From Acidobacteriota bacterium (GTDB lineage: Bacteria > Acidobacteriota > Vicinamibacteria > Fen-336), in contig WYBL01000152.1 in NCBI GenBank assembly GCA_011526565.1, positions 1-64,000 on the forward strand: a stretch of DNA of 64,000 bases, written 5' to 3'. The notes beneath the pieces are model-generated. The model made no database searches. It was given only the letters and a program-made list of their open reading frames with translations, and was not told where the DNA came from. Made by a program: the position numbers and the translations under genes. Positions within the stretch are counted from its first letter, which is position 1, and every line of letters begins with the position of its first letter. Of the stretch, positions 1,154 through 25,015 are shown in pieces.

Positions 1154-2215
1154 CTACCGCGGCGCGGCCTCCGGCTCGGCGGGCAACTCGAGCCGCACCC
1201 GGAAGCTCCCGGCGGCCCCGCCGGCCTCCAGGCGCCCGCGCCCGCCGCTGGCGGCCGCCAGCCGGCGCCGCACGTTCTCGAGGCCCACCCCCTCTCCGCG
1301 GCGCCGCGGCGGGGCGTCGACGTCGACGGGGTTCTCCACCTCGAGCCAGAGCCGGTCGCCCGCGCGCCCCGCGGCGACCCGCACGACGCCGCCCTCGACG
1401 AGCCCCGCGATGCCGTGGCCGACGGCGTTCTCCACCAGCGGCTGCAGCAGGAGCGGCGGCACAGGCACGGCGCGCGCGTTCTCGTCCACCTCCCAGGCGA
1501 CGCGCAGCCGATCGCCGAAGCGGACCTGCTCGATCGCCAGGTAGCGCTCGACGAGGCCCAGCTCTTCGCCCAGCGGAATCGCGTCGCGCTGGCCGTGGCG
1601 CAACGACAGGCGCAGGAACTCGGCGAGTCGCACGCACATGTCGCGGGCCCCGGCCGGGTGGGCCGTGGTCAGCGCGCTGATCGAGTTGAGGGCGTTGAAC
1701 AGGAAGTGGGGCTGGAGCTGGGCGCGCAGCGCCTTGAGCTCCGCCTCGCGCGAGAGCACGCGCTGGTCCAGTTCGCGCCGCTCCGCCTCGTGCGAGCGCC
1801 GGGCCGCGGCCTGCGCGTGCTGCAGCGCGGCGGCGAGCAGGAAGCCGAGGCCGCCGATCGAGGTCAGCAGCGGCACGGCGGCCTCGAGCCGGGCCTCGAC
1901 GCCGGGGAAGGCGGGCGCCGCGGCGGCGGCCAGGCCGCGCGCGGTGGCGACCCAGACGGCGCTGGCCATCGCCGCCGCCAGCGCGTGGACGAGGATCAGC
2001 CGCCACAGGGCCGTGCGGCCGAGCGGCTGCGAGTCCGCGAGCGAGCGGGCGGGGAAGCCGAACCCGCCGAGCACCGCGGCCAGCGGCAGGGCCAGCACCA
2101 GCGCTTCGCCGCCGCCGAGCCCGCCCGACCGCAGCGCCAGGGCCAGCAGGCCCCAGACCGGCGGCACCGCCGCCAGCAGGGGGCCCAGCCGGCCCGGGCT
2201 CGTCTCGGGCGCCAT
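1154..2215 (-). CDS. LytS/YehU-type sensor histidine kinase
   Basis: Predicted 353-residue membrane histidine kinase of the His_kinase (PF06580) class, which pairs with LytTR-type response regulators. The N-terminal 130 residues contain several hydrophobic segments. A short coiled region leads to the H-box QPHFLFNALNSIS with the phosphoacceptor His at about residue 170. The C-terminal ATPase shows an N-box-like LLLQPLVENAVGHG and a G-box GVGLENVRRRL. I chose the ATG at 2215, five bases after the stop of the LiaF-like gene; an in-frame upstream extension would run through that gene. The likely partner is the LytTR protein encoded divergently at 3416. The stimulus is unknown, but the LiaF-like neighbours suggest envelope stress. 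Confidence 0.88.
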   Translation of the reverse strand: MAPETSPGRLGPLLAAVPPVWGLLALALRSGGLGGGEALVLALPLAAVLGGFGFPARSLADSQPLGRTALWRLILVHALAAAMASAVWVATARGLAAAAAPAFPGVEARLEAAVPLLTSIGGLGFLLAAALQHAQAAARRSHEAERRELDQRVLSREAELKALRAQLQPHFLFNALNSISALTTAHPAGARDMCVRLAEFLRLSLRHGQRDAIPLGEELGLVERYLAIEQVRFGDRLRVAWEVDENARAVPVPPLLLQPLVENAVGHGIAGLVEGGVVRVAAGRAGDRLWLEVENPVDVDAPPRRRGEGVGLENVRRRLAAASGGRGRLEAGGAAGSFRVRLELPAEPEAAPR

Positions 2216-2220
2216 CGCCT

Positions 2221-2904
2221 TCAGTTCTTGATCTCGACGCCGCCCATCATCGCGAAGGCGTTGACGACCAGCCGCTTGCCGGTCTCCTCGCCCGGCGCCT
2301 CGGTCTCGTCCGTGATGCCGCCCATGAAGGGGATGCCGCGGATCACGACGTGCCAGTCGCGGGGCACGCGGATCTCGATCCCGCCCATGAAGGCCACCGC
2401 GTCGATCAGCGCCTCGCCGTCGCGCGGGGTGGCGTGACGCAGGTCGAACTCGCAGCCGCCCATGACCGCCATCATGTCGGCGCCCTCGAACTCGGGCGAG
2501 TCGTTCTTGAGCTGGTGCGCGCCCATCACGGCGACGACGTGGCTGCGGCGCGCGGTCGTCACCGGCAGGTCGCCGCGCCGGCGGAAGCCGCCGAAGGCGA
2601 CGTGGGCGCCGATCAGGACGAACAGCGCGCCGGGCCACAGGTCCCAGAAGCTGACCGCCACGAGGCCCAGGTTGCTGCCCAGCATCCACGCTCCGGCGGC
2701 GCTCCACAGCGCGCCGGCCACCCGGCGCCGTGGGTCGAGCGCGAGCGTGATGCCGAAGGCGATCAGGAACAGCGGCCACCACTTGAGGTACTGGCGCGCC
2801 TCGATCAGGCGCAGGTTGCCGAGCGTGAACACCACGCCGACGGCCATCAGCAGCAGGCCGAGCACGGTGCGGGGCTGCAGCGCGGGGCTCTTCTCAACGG
2901 TCAT
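2221..2904 (-). CDS. LiaF-like membrane protein
   Basis: 227 residues. The first half holds about four hydrophobic segments (for example LGLLLMAVGVVFTLGNL and WWPLFLIAFGITLAL), matching the LiaF/LiaI transmembrane region. The second half, from about residue 118, is a beta-strand-rich domain with five short repeats: AVMGAHQLKN, AVMGGCEFDL, AFMGGIEIRV, PFMGGITDET and AMMGGVEIKN. This is characteristic of the LiaF C-terminal domain family. LiaF proteins inhibit a cognate LiaS-type kinase during envelope stress, and a similar role toward the downstream kinase is an inference. The start overlaps the upstream gene by 11 bases. Confidence 0.8.
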   Translation of the reverse strand: MTVEKSPALQPRTVLGLLLMAVGVVFTLGNLRLIEARQYLKWWPLFLIAFGITLALDPRRRVAGALWSAAGAWMLGSNLGLVAVSFWDLWPGALFVLIGAHVAFGGFRRRGDLPVTTARRSHVVAVMGAHQLKNDSPEFEGADMMAVMGGCEFDLRHATPRDGEALIDAVAFMGGIEIRVPRDWHVVIRGIPFMGGITDETEAPGEETGKRLVVNAFAMMGGVEIKN

Positions 2905-3277
2905 GGCGGGCCTCCGAGGTGGCGGACGAGGTGGGCGCGGGGCGACGGGACTCCATCAGCGACTCGAACACGAGCGAAGCGCCGGCGGCGACGAGGAACA
3001 GGGGCCAGGAGTCCCACAACGACAGGACCTCCAGGTTGTGGGCCAGCAGCAGCAGGCCGGCGCCCGCGAGACCCAGGCCGTCGCACCAGCCCCGGCGGTT
3101 GAGCCACTGGCCGAGGCCGAGGAAGACGAGGGCCAGCGGCCAGAACTTCTGGTACTGGTAGACCCGGATCTCGATCCACCCCAGCCGGTCCGCGGTCATC
3201 AGCAGGCCCAGGCTCATCATCATCAGGCCCACGGCGACCGCGCCCGTGGAGTCGACCCGCCCGCCCTTCCTGGCCAT
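2894..3277 (-). CDS. Small LiaI/LiaF-like transmembrane protein (DUF5668-type)
   Basis: 127 residues. It has about four membrane segments, including AVGLMMMSLGLLMTADRLGW, FWPLALVFLGLGQW, GLGLAGAGLLLLAH and WPLFLVAAGASLVFES, then a polar tail. This resembles the transmembrane half of the adjacent LiaF-like protein without its beta-repeat domain. The ATG at 3277 is chosen because AGGAGGGATCGGA lies immediately upstream on the minus strand; a much longer in-frame extension runs antisense through the kinase gene and is spurious. It is the first gene of the minus-strand operon. It may be a membrane anchor or regulator of the kinase, but this is not established. Confidence 0.72.
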   Translation of the reverse strand: MARKGGRVDSTGAVAVGLMMMSLGLLMTADRLGWIEIRVYQYQKFWPLALVFLGLGQWLNRRGWCDGLGLAGAGLLLLAHNLEVLSLWDSWPLFLVAAGASLVFESLMESRRPAPTSSATSEARHDR

Positions 3278-3328
3278 TCCGATCCCTCCTGCGAATCCTA
3301 ACGAGGCCGGCCCTGCTGCCGGGCCCGT

Positions 3329-3365
3329 GACCCGGCGAACGGCGGCGGAGACCCGGCGAACGGCG
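3329..3365. promoter_or_regulatory. Direct-repeat operator of LytTR type in the divergent intergenic region
   Basis: Two identical 16-base copies, GACCCGGCGAACGGCG, lie at 3329-3344 and 3350-3365, exactly 21 bases apart. Read on the minus strand the core is GCCGTTCGC, twice, with 12 bases between. LytTR regulators are known to bind pairs of about 9-base direct repeats with a GTT core and about 12-base spacing, so sequence, spacing and position all fit. It lies upstream of the minus-strand operon, and the regulator gene is on the other side. Binding is an inference. Confidence 0.6.
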
Positions 3366-3399: not shown

Positions 3400-3405
3400 T
3401 AGAAT
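3400..3405 (+). promoter_or_regulatory. Candidate -10 element of the kinase-LytTR gene
   Basis: TAGAAT lies 10 bases before the preferred ATG at 3416, so the transcript would be nearly leaderless. No convincing -35 was found. The upstream in-frame ATG at 3404 overlaps this element, which argues for the later start. Confidence 0.35.
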
Positions 3406-3415
3406 GGGCCTGCGC

Positions 3416-5098
3416 ATGATCGGGCGAACGCTGTCGCACTATCGAGTCACCGGGGAACTGAGCCGTGGGGGCATCGGGGTCGTCTACGTCGCGACCGACT
3501 TGGGCCTCGGCCGCGAGGTCGCCCTCAAGGTGCTGCGGCCCGACCGGGTCGGGGACCCGGAGCTGCGCTCGCGGCTGCTGCGCGAGGCGCGGGCCGCCGC
3601 TTCGCTGCAGCACCCGGCGATCGCGGTCGTGCACGAGGTCGGGGAAGAAGACGGTGTCGCCTTCATCGCCATGGAACGGGTGCCGGGGCGGCGGCTCGAC
3701 GAGTGGGCTGCCGGCGCCGGTGCGGACGCGGGGCTCGCGGCCCGGCTCGACCTCGCCCGGCAGATCGCCGAAGGGCTGGCCGCGGCGCACGCAGCCGGGA
3801 TCGTGCACCGCGACCTGAAGCCCGCGAACGTGCTGGTCACGGCCGAACGGCGCGTCAAGCTGATCGACTTCGGGCTGGCCAAGCTGCTGCACCCGCTGGG
3901 CGACTTCGGCGGCGCGGTCGACACGCCCGCCCAGGCGGGCACCGACCCGGGGCGCATCCTGGGCACCGCGGCGTACATGGCGCCGGAGCAGGCGCGCGGC
4001 GAAGACGTCGACCGCCGCGCCGACGTCTTCTCGTTCGGCGCGCTGCTCCACGAGCTGTTCGCGGGAAGGCCCGCCTTCCTGCGCGCCAACGGCATCGAGA
4101 CGCTGCACGCGGTGCTGAAGGACCCGGCGCCGCGGCTTCCGCCGCTCGCGGGCGCCGCGCCCGATGTGCAGGCGGACCTGCAGGACCTGCTCGACCTCTG
4201 CCTCGCCAAGGACCGCGACGAGCGCTTCGGCTCGATGGCCGACGTGGTCGCCGAGCTGGCGGCGCTGCACGAACGCGCCGGCGCGGCCACCGCGACGCCC
4301 ACGCCCGCCCGCGCGTCGCGCGTCTCAGGCGCCCCGCGCCCGGGCCGGCTGCGGGTCGCGATCGTCGACGACGAGGCGCTGGCCCGCGCGGTGTTGCGCG
4401 AGTACCTGTCGGCGCACGCCGACGTGGACATCGTCGCCGAGTGCGCCAACGGCTTCGAGGCGGTGAAGGCGGCCGCCGAGCACGCGCCGGACCTGCTGAT
4501 GCTCGACGTGCAGATGCCCAAGCTCGACGGCTTCGAAGTGCTGGAGCTGATCGGCCGCGAGATCGGCGTGATCTTCGTGACCGCCTACGACGAGTACGCG
4601 CTGAAGGCGTTCGACGTGCACGCGGTCGACTACCTGCAGAAGCCGGTGTCCCGCGAGCGCTTCGACGCGGCGCTCGCGCGCGCCCGCGCGCGGCTCGGCC
4701 GGGTCGCCCCGCCTTCGGCCGTCGAACTGCGCGCCGCCGCACAACCTCCCGTCCCGGCCGCGGCGCCGCCCGCCTGGGCCGAGCGCATCCTGGTCCGCGA
4801 CGGCGCCCGCGTCCACGTGATCCCGACGCCGAAGCTGGACTGGGCGCAGGCCCAGGACGACTACGTGTGCCTGCGCTCGGAGGGCCGCGACTACCTGAAG
4901 GAACAGACGCTCGCCGAGCTCGAGCGCAGCCTCGACCCGACCCGCTTCGTCCGCATCCACCGCTCGTACCTGCTGAACCTCGAGCGCCTGGCGAGGATCG
5001 AGGCGTACGCCAAGGACTCGCGCACGGCGATCCTCCACGACGGCCACAAGCTCCCGGTCAGCCGCGCCGGGTACGCGAGGCTCAAGGCCCTGCTGTAG
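3416..5098 (+). CDS. Ser/Thr protein kinase - receiver - LytTR DNA-binding fusion
   Basis: About 560 residues with three modules. Residues 5-275 are a Pkn-type kinase: GGIGVVY glycine loop, VALKVL lysine, HRDLKPANVL, DFGLAK and YMAPEQARGE. Residues about 315-430 are a CheY-like receiver: VDDE acidic pair, phosphoacceptor Asp near 364 in LMLDVQMPKLDGFEVL, the VTAYDEYALKAF switch and the conserved Lys in LQKPV. Residues about 455-560 are a LytTR domain, with DYVCLRSEGRDYL and FVRIHRSYLLNL. MIGRTLSHYR at 3416 is preferred as the start because it matches the usual beginning of such kinases; an ATG four codons earlier is possible. A LytS-type kinase lies divergently. This architecture could accept both His-Asp and Ser/Thr phosphorylation input. 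Confidence 0.9.
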   Translation: MIGRTLSHYRVTGELSRGGIGVVYVATDLGLGREVALKVLRPDRVGDPELRSRLLREARAAASLQHPAIAVVHEVGEEDGVAFIAMERVPGRRLDEWAAGAGADAGLAARLDLARQIAEGLAAAHAAGIVHRDLKPANVLVTAERRVKLIDFGLAKLLHPLGDFGGAVDTPAQAGTDPGRILGTAAYMAPEQARGEDVDRRADVFSFGALLHELFAGRPAFLRANGIETLHAVLKDPAPRLPPLAGAAPDVQADLQDLLDLCLAKDRDERFGSMADVVAELAALHERAGAATATPTPARASRVSGAPRPGRLRVAIVDDEALARAVLREYLSAHADVDIVAECANGFEAVKAAAEHAPDLLMLDVQMPKLDGFEVLELIGREIGVIFVTAYDEYALKAFDVHAVDYLQKPVSRERFDAALARARARLGRVAPPSAVELRAAAQPPVPAAAPPAWAERILVRDGARVHVIPTPKLDWAQAQDDYVCLRSEGRDYLKEQTLAELERSLDPTRFVRIHRSYLLNLERLARIEAYAKDSRTAILHDGHKLPVSRAGYARLKALL

Positions 5099-5123: not shown

Positions 5124-5154
5124 TGATATCATGTTCGCAATGAGATCGATATCA
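5124..5154. promoter_or_regulatory. Repeated GATATCA boxes at the MNT gene start
   Basis: GATATCA occurs at 5125-5131 and again at 5148-5154, 23 bases apart, and the first copy is part of the palindrome TGATATCA (5124-5131). They flank the candidate start codons of the antitoxin gene, whose N-terminus resembles a ribbon-helix-helix domain. Autoregulatory binding is a guess. Confidence 0.25.
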
Positions 5155-5718
5155 ATAGATGCCGCGGCCCGCGTCGCCCGGGTGCTGCTGCGGTTGCCGG
5201 CGCCGCTCCACGCCGCGCTCTCGGCTGCGGCCTCCGCCCAGGGGCTCTCGTTCAACGCATACTGCGTGCGGCGGCTGGGTGCGCCGGCGCACCCGCACGA
5301 GGCCTCGCCGCTGCGCACGCTCGTGCTCGAGCGCGCGCTCGCCGCGTTCGGTGAGCGGCTCCAGGGCGCGCTCGCGCTCGGGTCGTGGGCGCGCGGGGAA
5401 GCAGGAGCGGGCTCGGACATCGACGTGCTGATCGCCGTCGATCGCGAGGTGGCGCTGACGCGGGACCTGTACCGGCGCTGGGACGCGTCGCCGCTCGTCT
5501 TCGAGGGCCGCGCGATCGACGCCCACTTCGTGCACCTGCCAGAGCCCGGCGCGGCGCCGACGGCGGTGTGGTGCGAGGCCGCAGTCGACGGCCTCGTCTG
5601 GTACGACCGTGACGGGGCGGTGGAGCGTCGCCTGGCCGACGTGCGGCGCGCGATCGCCGACGGCCGCGTCGTGCGCCGTCGCGTTCACGGCCAGCCGTAC
5701 TGGAAGGGAGCCGCCTGA
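5131..5718 (+). CDS. MNT-type nucleotidyltransferase with RHH-like N-terminus (antitoxin of MNT/HEPN pair)
   Basis: About 195 residues from the ATG at 5131 (192 from the ATG at 5140). Residues 15-50, with RVLLRLPAPLHAALSAAASA followed by LSFNAYCVRRL, resemble the ribbon-helix-helix segment of HicB/Arc-like antitoxins. Residues about 85-105 carry the minimal nucleotidyltransferase signature LGSWARGEAGAGSDIDVLIA (GS-x-ARGE-x-SD-x-D), and a later Asp in AIDAHFV could complete the metal site. In known MNT/HEPN pairs the nucleotidyltransferase AMPylates and silences the HEPN RNase. The stop overlaps the next start by one base (TGATG), as expected for a co-translated pair. Confidence 0.78.
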   Translation: MFAMRSISIDAAARVARVLLRLPAPLHAALSAAASAQGLSFNAYCVRRLGAPAHPHEASPLRTLVLERALAAFGERLQGALALGSWARGEAGAGSDIDVLIAVDREVALTRDLYRRWDASPLVFEGRAIDAHFVHLPEPGAAPTAVWCEAAVDGLVWYDRDGAVERRLADVRRAIADGRVVRRRVHGQPYWKGAA

Positions 5719-6137
5719 TGCGGAACCTGGACCTCGCGGCGGACTACCTGCGCCGCGCCGCCGCGCGGTTGCGGGCGCTCGACGTGCTGTACGAGGAGAA
5801 GAGCTGGGCCGACGTCGTGCGCGAATCGCAGGAAGTGGTCGAGCTGGCCCTCAAGGGGCTGCTCCGCGCGAGCGGGATCGAGCCGCCTCGCATCCACGAC
5901 GTCGCCGACGTGCTGCTCGCGGAGCGGAAGCGCCTGCCGGAAGGGCTCCAGGCGAAGGTCGAGTCGCTGGCAGCCCACTCCCGCGCGCTGCGCCGCGACC
6001 GCGAGCTGGCTTTCTACGGTGCCGAGGACCTCACTCCTTCGTCGTTCTACCGCGAGGCCGACGCCACCCAGGCGCGCGCCGCGGCCCGCGAGGTCGTGGC
6101 CGCCGTCCGCCCCCACGTCGCCGCTCCCAGCGCCTGA
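5718..6137 (+). CDS. HEPN-domain protein (toxin partner of MNT)
   Basis: 139 residues, almost wholly helical. The segment WADVVRESQEVVELALKGLL followed by RASGIEPPRIHDVADVL is the typical core of PF05168 HEPN proteins. The R-x4-6-H RNase motif is not clear-cut: R-IHD near PPRIHDVADVL is the nearest match. It starts on the last base of the nucleotidyltransferase gene. Both genes together form the usual type VII-like toxin-antitoxin arrangement. If the catalytic motif is truly absent, the pair could have been co-opted for another role. Confidence 0.75.
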   Translation: MRNLDLAADYLRRAAARLRALDVLYEEKSWADVVRESQEVVELALKGLLRASGIEPPRIHDVADVLLAERKRLPEGLQAKVESLAAHSRALRRDRELAFYGAEDLTPSSFYREADATQARAAAREVVAAVRPHVAAPSA

Positions 6138-6242: not shown

Positions 6243-8999
6243 GTGAGTTACACGGATCGGGGCGGCCGCTTCCGGCGCCACGACGAAGGCGCGGGGCTGG
6301 TCGGCGGCGTGAACGAGATCGTGCAGGGTGCCCCAAATGGTGCGGCCGGCCCGAGCCGCGCCCGCGTCCGCACCGATGGCAAGTTCTTCCGGCTCGGCGA
6401 CCAGAAGTTCTGGGTCAAGGGTGTCACCTACGGCCCCTTCGCGCCGCGCGAGGGCTCGGGCCTGCAGCTCCCCGAGGCGCCGCAGCTCCACCAGGACTTC
6501 CGCCAGATCCGCGGCCTCGGCGCCAACGTGATCCGCGTGTACCACGTGCCGCCGCGCGAGGTGCTCGACCTCGCCCACGAGTACGGCCTCAAGGTGTTCG
6601 TCGACGTGCCCTGGTCCAAGCACCGCTGCTTCCTCGAGAACCGCGAGGACCGCGAAAGCGGGCGCCGCAACGTGCGCGAGGCCGCGCGCAGCCTGGCCGG
6701 CCACCCCGCCCTGTTCGCGCTCTCGGTGGTCAACGAGCTGCCGCCCGACGTCGTGCGCTGGCTGGGGCCGAAGCAGGTCGAGCGCTTCGTCGACGAACTG
6801 GTCGACGTGGCCCGCGAGCAGGACCCCGGCGCGCTCGTCACCTGCGCCAGCTTCCCGCCGACCGAGTACCTCGCGCCGCAGGCGATCGACTTCATGACGA
6901 TGAACGTCTACCTGCACGATCGCGGCCGCTTCGGCGCCTACCTGCGGCGCCTGCAGAACATCGCCGGCGAGAAGCCGCTGATCCTCGGCGAGTACGGCAT
7001 CGACACGATCCGCAACGGCGAAGAGGAGCAGGCCGAGCTGATCGGCATGCACCTCGAGGAGGTGTTCCGCAACGGCCTGGCGGGCACCTGCGTGTTCTCC
7101 TACACCGACGAGTGGTTCACGGGCGGCCACCCGATCACCGACTGGGCGTTCGGGCTGGTCCGCCGCGACCGCTCGCCCAAGCCCTCGTTCTTCGCGGTGG
7201 CGAAGAGCTGGCGCGCGGAGAGCCCGCTGCCGAAGCTCGAGCGCTACCCGCGGATGTCGGTGGTCGTCTGCACCTACAACGGCTCGCGCACGCTGGACGG
7301 CTGCCTCGACTCGCTGACGAAGCTGAACTACCCCGACTACGAGGCGATCCTCGTCAACGACGGCTCGACCGACAGCGTGCCGGAGATCGCCGCGCGTTTC
7401 CCCTCCATTCGCTACATCGCCCAGCCCAATCGTGGCCTCTCGGTCGCCCGCAACGTGGGCGCCGAGGCGGCGACGGGCGAGATCGTCGTCTACACCGACG
7501 ACGACTGCTTTGCGGACCCCGACTGGCTCTACTACCTGGCGGCCAAGTTCCTCGAGGAGCCGACGGCCGTCGCGGTCGGCGGGCCCAACCTGCTGCCGAT
7601 CGAGGACGGCCCGGTCTCGGCCTGCGTGCAGGCCAGCCCCGGCGCGCCGGCCCACATCCTGCTCGACGACGTCGAGGCCGAGCACATCCCCGGCTGCAAC
7701 ATGGCGTTCCGCCGCGACGCGCTGCTGGCGATCGGCGGCTTCGACCCCGTCTACCGCAAGGCGGGCGACGACGTCGACGTGTGCTGGCGCCTGCAGGCGC
7801 AGGGCGGCCGCATCGTGTACGCGCCGTCGGCGATGGTCTGGCACCACCGCCGCACCACGGTCAAGGCCTACCTGCGCCAGCAGTACGGTTACGGCGAGGC
7901 CGAGGCGCTGCTCAAGCGCAAGCACCCCGAGAAGTTCCACGGCTTCCGCGCCGACCTGTCGTGGATGGGCCGCATCTACACCCGCGCGGGCCTGGGCCTG
8001 ACGGTGGGCGAGCCGTCCATCCACCACGGCGTTTTCGGCACCGGCTTCTTCCAGACGATCTACTCGGCGCCGCAGGTGTGGTGGCCGCTCGTGGCGCTGT
8101 CGCTCGAGTGGTGGGCGCTGGCGCTGGGCCTGATCGGGCTCGGCAACGTGTTCAATCCCGCCGCGGCACTGGCGGGCGCCGGGGTCCTCGGCCCGTGGGC
8201 GCTGTCGCCTCTCGCCAACCCGCTGGTGCTGCTGCCGTCCCTGATGCTGCTGTCGACGTTCGCGCTGGCGTGGCGCGCCTCCGGCGAGGCGACGCCGGCC
8301 GAGCACCAGCGCCGCTGGTGGTCGCGGCCGCTGATCGCCGCCATGAACCTCGCGCAGCCGGTCGAGCGCGGCTGGGCCCGCTACAAGACCCGCTTCCAGA
8401 CGATCGCGATCCCGGACTCGCTGCGGCGCCTGGCCGAGGCCTGGTCGCAGCGGGCGGCGGCGGTGATCAACCGCGACAGCCTCGAGCTGTGGGCGGAGAA
8501 CGGAGCCGGCCGCGACGAGCTGCTGGCGCGAGTGCTGGAGATCGCCCACGCCCACAAGTGGTTCCCCCGCGTCGATTCCGGCTGGGCCCGCCACGACGCC
8601 CGCTTCTACGGCGACCGCTGGTGCAAGACCGACGTGATCACCGTGACCGAGAACCACGGCGGCCCGAAGCGGCTGACCAAGGTGCGGCTCGACGCCCAGG
8701 CGACGCTGTTCCAGAAGGTGCTGTTCATCGCCCTCGCCTACCTGACGCTGGTCGCCGCGGGCCTCGGCCAGGTCGCGCTGCTGGCCCTGGCGCCGGTCGT
8801 GGCCGGAGTGGCGATCGTCACCACGCTCGCCGCGCGGCGGCTGCGGCAGGCCGTCAATGCGACCTTCCTGGAGGCCGCTCGTGACCTCGACCTGCTGGTC
8901 GTCGGCCTGCCGCGCGAGAAGAAGGCCGAGGCTGCGGAGGGCGATCGCGACGAACTTCCCGCCGCGGCTCGCGTCGGCCTCGCCCGCACCGCCCGTTGA
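6243..8999 (+). CDS. Membrane glycosyltransferase family 2 fused to an N-terminal glycoside-hydrolase-like domain
   Basis: 918 residues from a GTG at 6243 preceded by GAGGCAAA. Residues about 35-325 are a GH5/GH2-like TIM barrel: FWVKGVTYGPF, catalytic-type Glu near 165 in SVVNELPP and near 250 in LILGEYGID. Residues about 335-560 are a GT2 transferase: MSVVVCTYNGSRTLDGCL, VNDGSTD, PNRGLSVARNVG, YTDDDC and a GDDVDVCWR acceptor-site motif. Hydrophobic segments follow at about 610-680 and again near 820-860, so the C-terminus is membrane-bound. It begins a run of coupled glycan genes and overlaps the ABC exporter start by TTGA. It probably polymerises or modifies an exported polysaccharide. The GH part may trim or transfer, and substrates are unknown. 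Confidence 0.85.
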   Translation: MSYTDRGGRFRRHDEGAGLVGGVNEIVQGAPNGAAGPSRARVRTDGKFFRLGDQKFWVKGVTYGPFAPREGSGLQLPEAPQLHQDFRQIRGLGANVIRVYHVPPREVLDLAHEYGLKVFVDVPWSKHRCFLENREDRESGRRNVREAARSLAGHPALFALSVVNELPPDVVRWLGPKQVERFVDELVDVAREQDPGALVTCASFPPTEYLAPQAIDFMTMNVYLHDRGRFGAYLRRLQNIAGEKPLILGEYGIDTIRNGEEEQAELIGMHLEEVFRNGLAGTCVFSYTDEWFTGGHPITDWAFGLVRRDRSPKPSFFAVAKSWRAESPLPKLERYPRMSVVVCTYNGSRTLDGCLDSLTKLNYPDYEAILVNDGSTDSVPEIAARFPSIRYIAQPNRGLSVARNVGAEAATGEIVVYTDDDCFADPDWLYYLAAKFLEEPTAVAVGGPNLLPIEDGPVSACVQASPGAPAHILLDDVEAEHIPGCNMAFRRDALLAIGGFDPVYRKAGDDVDVCWRLQAQGGRIVYAPSAMVWHHRRTTVKAYLRQQYGYGEAEALLKRKHPEKFHGFRADLSWMGRIYTRAGLGLTVGEPSIHHGVFGTGFFQTIYSAPQVWWPLVALSLEWWALALGLIGLGNVFNPAAALAGAGVLGPWALSPLANPLVLLPSLMLLSTFALAWRASGEATPAEHQRRWWSRPLIAAMNLAQPVERGWARYKTRFQTIAIPDSLRRLAEAWSQRAAAVINRDSLELWAENGAGRDELLARVLEIAHAHKWFPRVDSGWARHDARFYGDRWCKTDVITVTENHGGPKRLTKVRLDAQATLFQKVLFIALAYLTLVAAGLGQVALLALAPVVAGVAIVTTLAARRLRQAVNATFLEAARDLDLLVVGLPREKKAEAAEGDRDELPAAARVGLARTAR

Positions 9000-10810
9000 A
9001 CTCCTCCGTGCCGACCGCCGTTTCGGCCGCCCGCCGCGTGCTGGGCTACCTGCGCCCGCACCGTCGGCGTTTCGCAGGTGGCATCGGGCTGACCCTCGCC
9101 GGCATCGCCCTCGACCTGCTGAAGCCGGTGCCGCTGGCGATCGTCATCGACTCGGTGCTGTCGGGCCGGCCGCTGCCCGGCGCGCTGCAGCCGGTGCTCG
9201 GCGGGCTCTCGCCGCTGGGGCTGCTGGCCGTCGCGGCCGGCTCGATCGTCGTCTTCACGTTCCTGCGCGGGGCGACGACCGTCGCCGCCAACTACGTGAC
9301 GATCTCGACCGGCCAGCGCATGGTCTCCGACCTGCGCACCGACCTCTACGCGCACCTGCAGAAGCTGTCGCTGCGCTTCCACTACCGGCAGACCACCGGA
9401 GACCTGCTGTTCCGCGTGATGGCCGACACCTACTCGGCGCAGGGCCTGGTGATGAACGGCCTGCTGCCGATGGCCACGGCGGTCGTGATGCTCGGCGGCA
9501 TGTTCGCGGTGATGCTGCGGCTCGACGCGACGCTGGCGCTGGTCGCGCTCGTCGTGTGCCCGCCGCTCTACCTCGCCGTCAGCGGCATCACCGGCCGCAT
9601 CCACGCCCACGCGACCGCCTCGAAGGAGGCCGAGAGCGCGCTCTACGCCAGGGCCGAGAGCACGCTGGGCGCGGTCAAGCTGGTCCAGGCCTACGGCCGC
9701 GAGCAGCGCGCCGTCGACGACTTCCGCCGCGGCTCGGACCACTCGCTGTCGCTGGCGCTGCGCCTCTATTCGACCGAGACCGCGTTCGGCCTGGTGGTCG
9801 ACTCGGTGCTGGCGCTCGGTACCGCTGCGCTGGTGTTCCTCGGCGCACTGCACGTGATGGAGGGCCGGCTGCAGCTCGGCGCGCTGACCGTGTTCCTGTC
9901 CTACCTACGCGACCTGTACGGCCCGATCCAGAGCATCAGCGCCAACCTGGCGGAGATCGCCTCGTCGCGGGCCGGCCTCGAGCGGGTGTTCCAGGTGCTC
10001 GACCAGGAACCCGACGTCGCCGACGCGCCGCACGCCCGTCCGTTGCCCGCGGTGCGCGGCCGGCTGTCGTTCGAAGACGTCACCTTCGCCTACGACGACG
10101 CGCGGCCCGTGCTGCGCGACGTCAACCTGGAGCTGCAGCCCGGAGAAGTGATCGCCCTGGTCGGCCGCACGGGCGCCGGCAAGAGTACGCTGGCGAGCCT
10201 CGCCCTGCGGCTGTTCGACCCCGGCGCCGGGAGCGTGAAGATCGACGGCCACGACCTGCGCGAGGTGACGCTGGCCTCGCTGCGCCGCCAGGTGACGCTG
10301 CTCCTGCAGGAGCCGATCCTGTTCCACTCGAGCGTCGCCGACAACATCGCCTTCGGCTCCGAGGCCAGCCGCGAACAGATCACCGCCGCGGCCCGCCAGG
10401 CCGAGGCGGACGAGTTCGTCCAGAAGCTGCCCCAGGGCTACGACACGGTGCTCGGGGACGGCGGCGTGACGCTGTCCGGCGGCCAGCGCCAGCGCCTCGC
10501 GCTGGCCCGCGCGCTGCTGCGCGACTCGCGGATCGTGATCCTCGACGAGCCGACCAGCGCCCTCGACCTCGGCACCGAGGCCCAGGTGTGGCGCAACGTG
10601 GAGCGGGTGCTCGACGGCCGCACCGCGCTGGTGATCGCCCACCGGCTGTCGACCGCGCGGCGCGCCGACCGCATCGCGGTGATGGAGGACGGGCAGATCG
10701 TCGAGCTCGGCAGCCACGCCGAACTCCTGGCCCGCGGCGGCGTCTACGCCGCGCTGTGGAGCCAGCACGATCCGTCGGCAGTCCTGGACGCCCTGCCGGT
10801 GAGCGCCTGA
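8996..10810 (+). CDS. MsbA-like ABC exporter (permease-ATPase fusion)
   Basis: About 604 residues. The N-terminal half holds six membrane helices of the ABC_membrane type (for example IGLTLAGIALDLLKPVPLAI). The C-terminal half is the ATPase: Walker A GRTGAGKST near residue 393, Q-loop LLLQEPILF, signature LSGGQRQRLALARALL, Walker B VILDEPTSALD and the switch His in VIAHRLS. The TTG at 8996 overlaps the upstream stop; a GTG at 9008 is an alternative. Half-size exporters of this type act as homodimers that flip lipids, lipid-linked glycans or drugs. Its place between glycosyltransferase genes suggests export of the glycan or its lipid carrier. Confidence 0.92.
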   Translation: MNSSVPTAVSAARRVLGYLRPHRRRFAGGIGLTLAGIALDLLKPVPLAIVIDSVLSGRPLPGALQPVLGGLSPLGLLAVAAGSIVVFTFLRGATTVAANYVTISTGQRMVSDLRTDLYAHLQKLSLRFHYRQTTGDLLFRVMADTYSAQGLVMNGLLPMATAVVMLGGMFAVMLRLDATLALVALVVCPPLYLAVSGITGRIHAHATASKEAESALYARAESTLGAVKLVQAYGREQRAVDDFRRGSDHSLSLALRLYSTETAFGLVVDSVLALGTAALVFLGALHVMEGRLQLGALTVFLSYLRDLYGPIQSISANLAEIASSRAGLERVFQVLDQEPDVADAPHARPLPAVRGRLSFEDVTFAYDDARPVLRDVNLELQPGEVIALVGRTGAGKSTLASLALRLFDPGAGSVKIDGHDLREVTLASLRRQVTLLLQEPILFHSSVADNIAFGSEASREQITAAARQAEADEFVQKLPQGYDTVLGDGGVTLSGGQRQRLALARALLRDSRIVILDEPTSALDLGTEAQVWRNVERVLDGRTALVIAHRLSTARRADRIAVMEDGQIVELGSHAELLARGGVYAALWSQHDPSAVLDALPVSA

Positions 10811-24334: not shown

Positions 24335-25015
24335 ACCCGACCGCGGAGCGCCGGACCCCCGGCGCTCCGCCACCCCGCCCGCCCGCCGTCGCATGCCGCG
24401 GTGGGCCACCCCGCCCGAGCGCCGTCGCCCGGACAGCGGCGCTCCCGCCCCGCCCGGACGCCGCCGTGCCCGCGGCGTCCCGCCCCGCCCGCGCAGCCGC
24501 AGGCTGCGCCGGCCCGTCCGTTTCGTTCGTCGGCGTTCGGCTTGAACGGCGAACGGAGAACGGACGGGGTTGGCTTGGCGGGCGGGGTGGCGCGCGGCGG
24601 GCTTCGCACTTCCGCACGCGGGCGGGGTGGCGCAGGCGGTGCTCGGCCTGCGCGGGCGGGGCGGGCTCGCACTTCCATTGCGGGCTCGCCGGGCGGGGTG
24701 GCGCACGCGGTTCTCGGCGTGCGCGGTCGGGGAGGGGGCGCGAGAACGCCTTGCGCCGTGTGCGGGAGCGCAGTAGCTTTCTGGGCCGGTCGATAGAAGA
24801 AGCGGCCGTCTGTTACGCCCCTGATTCAAGCAGGCGCAAGCCTCGCGTAGCAGCGGGCCATTTTTCTGCCACCGACGGGCTTGTTCGAGGCAGCCGCGGG
24901 ACGGCGCAGCCGCGGGAGGCCCGCAGAACCTGACCAAACTCGCGCCCCGGCCACCCAGCATCCGACGTGCCAGACGCACCGGACCTCGCGCGGCGCTTCT
25001 TCGTGGAGCGTGGCA
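24335..25015. other. Gene-free GC-rich region left of the island
   Basis: 743 bases separate the SRPBCC and four-helix-bundle genes. The first part is a C-rich to G-rich iterated element (repeat copy 1, listed separately). From about 24734 to 25015 I see no coding signal, tRNA or clear promoter. Short open frames here lack start signals and have low-complexity Arg/Gly/Ala translations. Confidence 0.6.
24411..24733. repeat. Island-flanking repeat, copy 1
   Basis: About 323 bases related to 41221-41552. The core 24470-24615 matches 41281-41433 with one seven-base insertion and a few substitutions. The left half is built of CCCGCCC runs and the right half of GGGCGGG runs, so strand composition flips in the middle. 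CCGTCCGTT (24513-24521) can pair with AACGGACGG (24560-24568). The right half repeats GGGCGGGGTGGCGC several times. Confidence 0.85.

Follow-up and report, generated by a model that had tools for sequence, protein, structure and literature searches.

What does a perfectly repeated 16-nt sequence do in the space between a signal-transduction operon and a divergent regulator gene, and which of its neighbors does it serve? This question is raised by a locus within a 64-kb stretch of Acidobacteriota DNA, referred to here as the window. A repeat search recovered two exact 16-nt copies of GACCCGGCGAACGGCG at positions 3329-3344 and 3350-3365 with a period of 21, precisely as an earlier note on this DNA had described them. 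Read on the minus strand, the putative LytTR-type operator (3331..3364) takes the form GCCGTTCGCCGGG-N8-GCCGTTCGCCGGG, i.e., two 13-bp half-sites spaced 21 bp start to start and contained within the 16-bp repeats. Each half-site carries the 9-mer GCCGTTCGC, the copy distal to lia at 3356..3364 and the proximal one at 3335..3343 (both minus strand), and the 12 bp between them fall within the 11-13 bp that separate the ~9-bp direct repeats of LytTR sites. GCCGTTCGC fits the LytTR 9-mer consensus, [TA][AC][CA]GTTN[AG][TC], at 8 of 9 positions, the exception being the G at position 1; in relatives, position 4 is usually occupied by G or A. The 12-base spacing proposed in the earlier note was recovered, and a period of 21 proved to be the one preferred in relatives as well. 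A chance origin of the repeat was rejected, since 60 order-1 simulated windows yielded no repeat at period 21 and only 0.03 per window over periods 17-60. The operator pair is the sole exact direct repeat of ≥16 bp with period 21 in the 64-kb window. A second exact 16-bp direct repeat, the only other one over periods 17-60, occurs at 24578 with a period of 40.

On the lia side of the repeat, the minus strand encodes a LiaI-like membrane protein (2894..3277; PF18917, PF22570), a LiaF-like protein (2221..2904; PF18917, PF22570, PF09922) and a LytS/AlgZ-type histidine kinase (1154..2215; PF06580). The LiaF-like protein has both transmembrane and C-terminal (PF09922) domains, with PF22570 and PF09922 above cut-off. 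The kinase matched PF06580 with 91.3 bits and was counted as LytS/AlgZ-type with a sub-threshold HATPase_c domain (20.4 bits; Pfam cut-off, 26.4). A family 5 solute-binding protein gene (PF00496; 1..1141, minus strand) runs off the window; its start codon lies 12 bp after lytS, a position kept in the same-genus genomes G001 and G002, and it is possibly part of the lia operon. No match to this gene was found in loci L038-L051. On the other side of the repeat, a 560-aa regulator is encoded on the plus strand (3416..5098), its start being taken from alignment with 3404 as an in-frame alternative. The placement between a LytS kinase operon and a LytTR gene held up, but the regulator is more than the plain LytTR gene initially assumed, since it consists of a Ser/Thr kinase (aa 9-273; Pkinase, 142.6 bits), a REC domain (aa 314-420; PF00072, 84 bits) and a LytTR domain (aa 465-560; PF04397, 75.9 bits). 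The phosphorylatable Asp of REC is present, and its Asp54 column was invariant in 17 of 17 aligned sequences. Directly behind the regulator (5140-6137, plus strand) is a toxin-antitoxin-like nucleotidyltransferase-HEPN pair (PF01909 with a HicB-like stretch, and PF05168); G002 shares the pair but G001 lacks it, the next operon there coming straight after the regulator. Genes that by eye resemble a large glycosyltransferase and an ABC exporter follow at 6243-10810 (plus strand), possibly a cell-surface polysaccharide locus; the first of them adjoins the regulator in G001, too, with 98% identity.

The earlier note had named conservation of the repeat in orthologous intergenic regions as the check on its reading. 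A matrix was prepared from 14 half-sites of seven loci of the class and used to scan loci in which liaF and lytS are retained on the same strand; a match was scored when, of all 21-bp-period pairs on either strand of a locus, the best one lay ≤900 bp upstream of the operon and on its strand. Of the 90 loci outside the training set, 70 had their best pair at the predicted place, a short way upstream of lia, a count of mutually related loci and hence of non-independent events. Absence of the repeats from orthologs, the outcome that would have refuted the reading, was thus not what the scan showed. All seven training loci matched, as did 36/54 loci of the first independent set (2.6 expected), 17/17 of a fresh class set and 17/19 of a fresh phylum set. 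The first scan covered 97 loci (the window, L036-L051 and L080-L159), 36 of which were dropped for want of a liaF-lytS pair by the rule applied, including L049 and its copy L104. The fresh class set began with 20 loci and lost L188 (a copy of L080), L202 (without liaF or lytS) and L199 (contig ending ~90 bp upstream); the fresh phylum set also began with 20 and lost L230 (a copy of L098). At other spacings (15-20 and 22-29 bp), only 1-6 of the 54 loci in the first set matched. With the half-site score floor removed, the real matrix matched 56 of 71 loci. By comparison, 200 column-permuted matrices averaged 5.6 matches and reached 16 at most, and spacings from 10 to 35 other than 21 gave 3-23 of 71.

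The matrix missed 20 of the 90 test loci, namely 18 in the first set plus L234 and L240 in the fresh phylum set; the contig of L234 begins 268 bp before liaF. A relaxed pattern supplied an upstream pair in 10 of the 18 (L039, L108, L111, L114-L119 and L121), and neither matrix nor relaxed pattern found one in L045, L050, L082, L092, L109, L110, L112 or L124. The matrix often fails in Bacteroidota. There, the relaxed pattern located a pair ahead of liaF in 13 of the 16 loci, although it was drafted after pairs were already visible in L108, L120, L122, L123 and L126, so that the blind part of this result is 8 of 11. No such pair was found elsewhere in these 16 loci, and none at 20 or 22 bp. Operators were present in Acidobacteriota, Pseudomonadota, Ignavibacteriota, Bacteroidota and, by a single locus (L154), Eiseniibacteriota. 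Three loci with doubtful labels, L086 ("Nevskia"), L102 ("Proteobacteria") and L089 ("Bacteroidetes"), were kept out of this list; in a tree they group among Acidobacteriota or Ignavibacteriota.

Alignment of 43 operators gave a half-site consensus close to GCCRTTCRCCGR, the strength of its columns being partly owed to selection by the matrix. Position 4, the first base of the GTT, is G or A in relatives, and both copies in G002, a genome of the same genus, have ATT; the "GTT core" of the earlier note was too strict in this respect. In columns that were not used for selection, a -10 element stood out at a fixed place (T in 35, A in 32 and the final T in 34 of 43). Among 49 operators that belonged neither to the training set nor to Bacteroidota, 44 had TANNNT at 28-30 bp downstream of the proximal half-site, and in 35 the distance was exactly 29 bp; 15 control windows gave 0-3. 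The fresh phylum set gave 16 of 17, bringing the two sets together to 60 of 66; the element was absent at this distance in 5/49 and 1/17 operators, respectively. In the window, the lia -10 is predicted at 3295..3300 (TAGGAT, minus strand), with a distance of 30 bp from the proximal 13-bp half-site upstream of it. No recognizable -35 was found in the window's lia promoter (CCCGGC at 17-bp spacing), nor did the 43 aligned operators yield a -35 consensus. If a 17-bp spacer is assumed, the operator ends 11 bp from the -35 position in the window and 10 bp from it for the majority -10 position; the site is hence about 10 bp upstream of -35 by position, with the -35 sequence itself unrecognizable. 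Conservation, the poor scores of other spacings and permuted matrices, and a -10 element at a fixed distance all support the LytTR-operator reading. As judged from sequence comparison, the repeat pair is very probably a real and old regulatory site, kept at the same place in several phyla and apparently ordinary for a LytTR operator in its geometry but unusual in its depth of conservation.

We consider it highly probable that the divergently encoded LytTR regulator binds the repeats as a tandem site, that the main target of the site is the lia (liaI-liaF-lytS) promoter, and that it functions in a LiaF/LytS circuit with positive feedback. In this circuit, the LytS-type kinase and the LiaI/LiaF membrane proteins would probably sense envelope stress jointly, and the kinase would phosphorylate the Asp of REC. 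We infer that the phosphorylated regulator would then bind both half-sites as a dimer in head-to-tail arrangement, leaving ~11 bp between it and the -35 position downstream, and would recruit RNA polymerase to a promoter that has a -10 but lacks a recognizable -35. Activation of lia would result in more LiaF and LytS, i.e., positive feedback, and the fused Ser/Thr kinase would probably provide a second phosphorylation input to the regulator. The term "envelope stress" is taken solely from the homology to LiaF. As an inhibitor, LiaF is known alongside LiaS, which belongs to a different kinase family, so the role suggested for LiaF beside LytS is by analogy.

The main alternative is that the site is a repressor site, or that it serves mainly for autorepression of the regulator gene rather than activation of lia. 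In the window's family, 7/7 loci with the fused gene have ahead of it a predicted -10 of the TAGAAT or TACAAT type, which reads ATTCTA/ATTGTA on the lia strand; in the window it is TAGAAT (3400..3405, plus strand), 35 bp from the operator edge. In G004, G007, G008 and G013 the operator edge lies only 12-14 bp from this element, and bound regulator would cover the -35 region of the regulator gene. Against this, the gap to the regulator -10 varies, from 35 bp in the window and G001 to 215 bp in G002, whereas the lia -10 keeps an almost constant distance from the operator, even where the regulator sits behind lytS in the lia operon. We therefore tie the operator to the lia promoter and regard repression as the principal function of the site as unlikely; in some genera, autorepression on top of lia activation is possible. 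Feedback may not extend to the regulator itself, whose promoter is 215 bp away in G002. Between operator and regulator gene, the G002 locus (L037) contains ~180 bp of additional sequence made up of repeated GC-rich units. In the window, TAGAAT ends 10 bp before the likely ATG (3416), and the regulator transcript may consequently be leaderless or nearly so.

Ownership of the site by another LytTR protein is conceivable in that the genome (G000) encodes four LytTR domains, three besides that of the regulator, and LytTR sites resemble one another. The site nevertheless accompanies liaF-lytS-REC-LytTR orthologs over several phyla, only one of the four LytTR genes adjoins it, and a single copy of the exact tandem was found in the 5.79-Mb genome assembly (93% complete), which makes a foreign owner very improbable. 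That the repeat is a recent, functionless tandem duplication, as the identity of the copies over 16 bp, more than the conserved half-site, might suggest, is scarcely credible considering that spacing and sequence are kept at the same place in the 70 loci and that both copies in G002 share the same G-to-A change around a different spacer.

Further targets were sought by pattern searches. A degenerate tandem, run against eight genomes, gave zero-mismatch matches at the lia sites of G000, G001 and G002 only; no second zero-mismatch tandem beyond lia was found in G000 or across the eight genomes. At two mismatches, the lia sites of G004 and G007 were too degenerate to be detected, and matches outside lia exist in G000, G001, G002, G004, G007 and G035, of which three were inspected. 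A site common to G000 and G001 (L217/L219) was rejected as a regulon member as it lies within a 521-aa open frame with 98% GC3. A shorter pattern with ≤3 mismatches gave 25 matches in G000, including the operator, compared to 8 for a reversed control pattern. Among four inspected of the other 24, L056 falls within a 926-aa frame, L067 (= L217) and L068 (= L221) are in long open frames, and L073 has no frame >150 aa with GC3 >0.85. Additional weak targets of the regulator are possible.

The kinase-REC-LytTR fusion was found in six further genomes of the window's family (60 genomes searched, the window's own included). It is present in 7 of the 14 family genomes searched and is divergent from the lia operon in all seven; G011 has a plain ortholog, and the other six gave no match at ortholog level, two of these being <70% complete. 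Ten other orthologous loci (L042-L051) have a plain REC-LytTR gene behind lytS on the same strand, which is the usual arrangement among the plain relatives examined; eight of the ten come from different families of the class. Among 114 REC-LytTR proteins examined, eight were fused, i.e., the seven family members plus L083, which stems from a Terriglobia MAG and whose kinase-REC-LytTR gene comes after lytS. In a maximum-likelihood tree of 78 rows, the distribution of the fusion needed two changes, and well-supported branches force two; the seven family fusions form one group with support of 99/79, slightly below the tool's mark. In the tree, the fusion was accordingly gained at least twice, independently in the family and in the Terriglobia MAG. 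Further kinase fusions, suspected from long open frames at orthologs, were discarded as no kinase match adjoined REC on its strand in any of the 20 loci retrieved. The Hanks-type motifs (Lys, HRD, DFG and A/S-PE) are kept in 8/8 fused proteins, with the first Gly of the Gly loop replaced by Ser in the three proteins of the window's genus. Taken together with dN/dS values of 0.10 (G001) and 0.16 (G002), these data suggest that the fused kinase is under purifying selection and probably active. More tentatively, and with somewhat less than even confidence, we suggest that the fusion is a junction of His-Asp and Ser/Thr systems, in which the kinase modifies either its own REC-LytTR portion or LytS/LiaF and the lia promoter thereby responds to both kinds of signal. 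On this reading, the operator would rank among the most widely conserved transcription-factor sites of an envelope-stress regulon not yet described, and would either predate the split of several phyla or have spread between them with its operon.

A survey of the open literature at abstract level gave no description of this lia operator or of a kinase-REC-LytTR fusion. The gene neighborhood is partly known already, as one paper reports LytTR genes beside LiaF-type genes in Firmicutes operons and LiaF-type genes beside two-component systems in Proteobacteria and Ignavibacteriae (PMC11237479), and the site geometry matches known LytTR promoters. The new parts are the deep conservation of the operator and the kinase fusion. 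In the passages of that paper covered here, no operator is given for LiaF-LytTR neighborhoods. Most of what is known about LiaF-type envelope-stress sensing comes from Firmicutes (PMC11237479). In Acidobacteriota and other phyla, a LiaF-LytS-LytTR circuit is marked by an operator whose promoter geometry hardly varies, and the defined site offers an exact object for testing and a route to the regulon.

The circuit resembles LiaFSR/VraTSR of Firmicutes in that LiaI/LiaF membrane proteins adjoin a two-component system, and differs in that LiaS and LiaR are HAMP-HISKIN and REC-wHTH proteins (PMC11237479). Here, a PF06580-type kinase and a LytTR regulator take the places of LiaS and a REC-HTH LiaR, and so the circuit is LiaF-like rather than LiaFSR. 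In the LytTR regulatory systems (LRS), such as HdrRM and BrsRM of Streptococcus mutans, direct repeats are separated by 12 bp and strongly tend to lie 10 bp upstream of -35; the sequences of the individual repeats are little conserved overall among LRS, and positive feedback has been demonstrated for HdrR (PMC6193735). The same repeat geometry is seen here before an operon of membrane proteins that would control a LytTR regulator, but LRS regulators are described as lacking the Asp that is phosphorylated in REC, and the membrane proteins of LRS as lacking a kinase domain, whereas both REC with its Asp and LytS are present in this locus. AlgR does not always use direct repeats with a 12-bp spacing and, to our knowledge, the AlgZ/AlgR system does without LiaF. 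AlgZ/AlgR of Pseudomonas is similar in that AlgZ/FimS, a putative histidine kinase, works with a regulator of the REC-LytTR type, and the AlgR core, CCGTTCGTC, is close to CCRTTCRCC of the lia half-site; imperfect direct repeats ~12 bp apart are described as common to LytTR proteins (PMC4064291). The promoter-proximal repeats of AgrA center near -60 (PMC4227749). The fusion, gained at least twice on one regulator, constitutes natural evidence for Ser/Thr kinases acting on LytTR response regulators. StkP is membrane-bound, and StkP and ComE are separate proteins. They provide the in-trans precedent, as StkP of Streptococcus pneumoniae phosphorylates the LytTR-type ComE at Thr128, with a higher DNA affinity as the result (PMC6010298). 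The two systems are thus alike in joining a Ser/Thr kinase to a LytTR response regulator, and they differ in that here both reside in one polypeptide.
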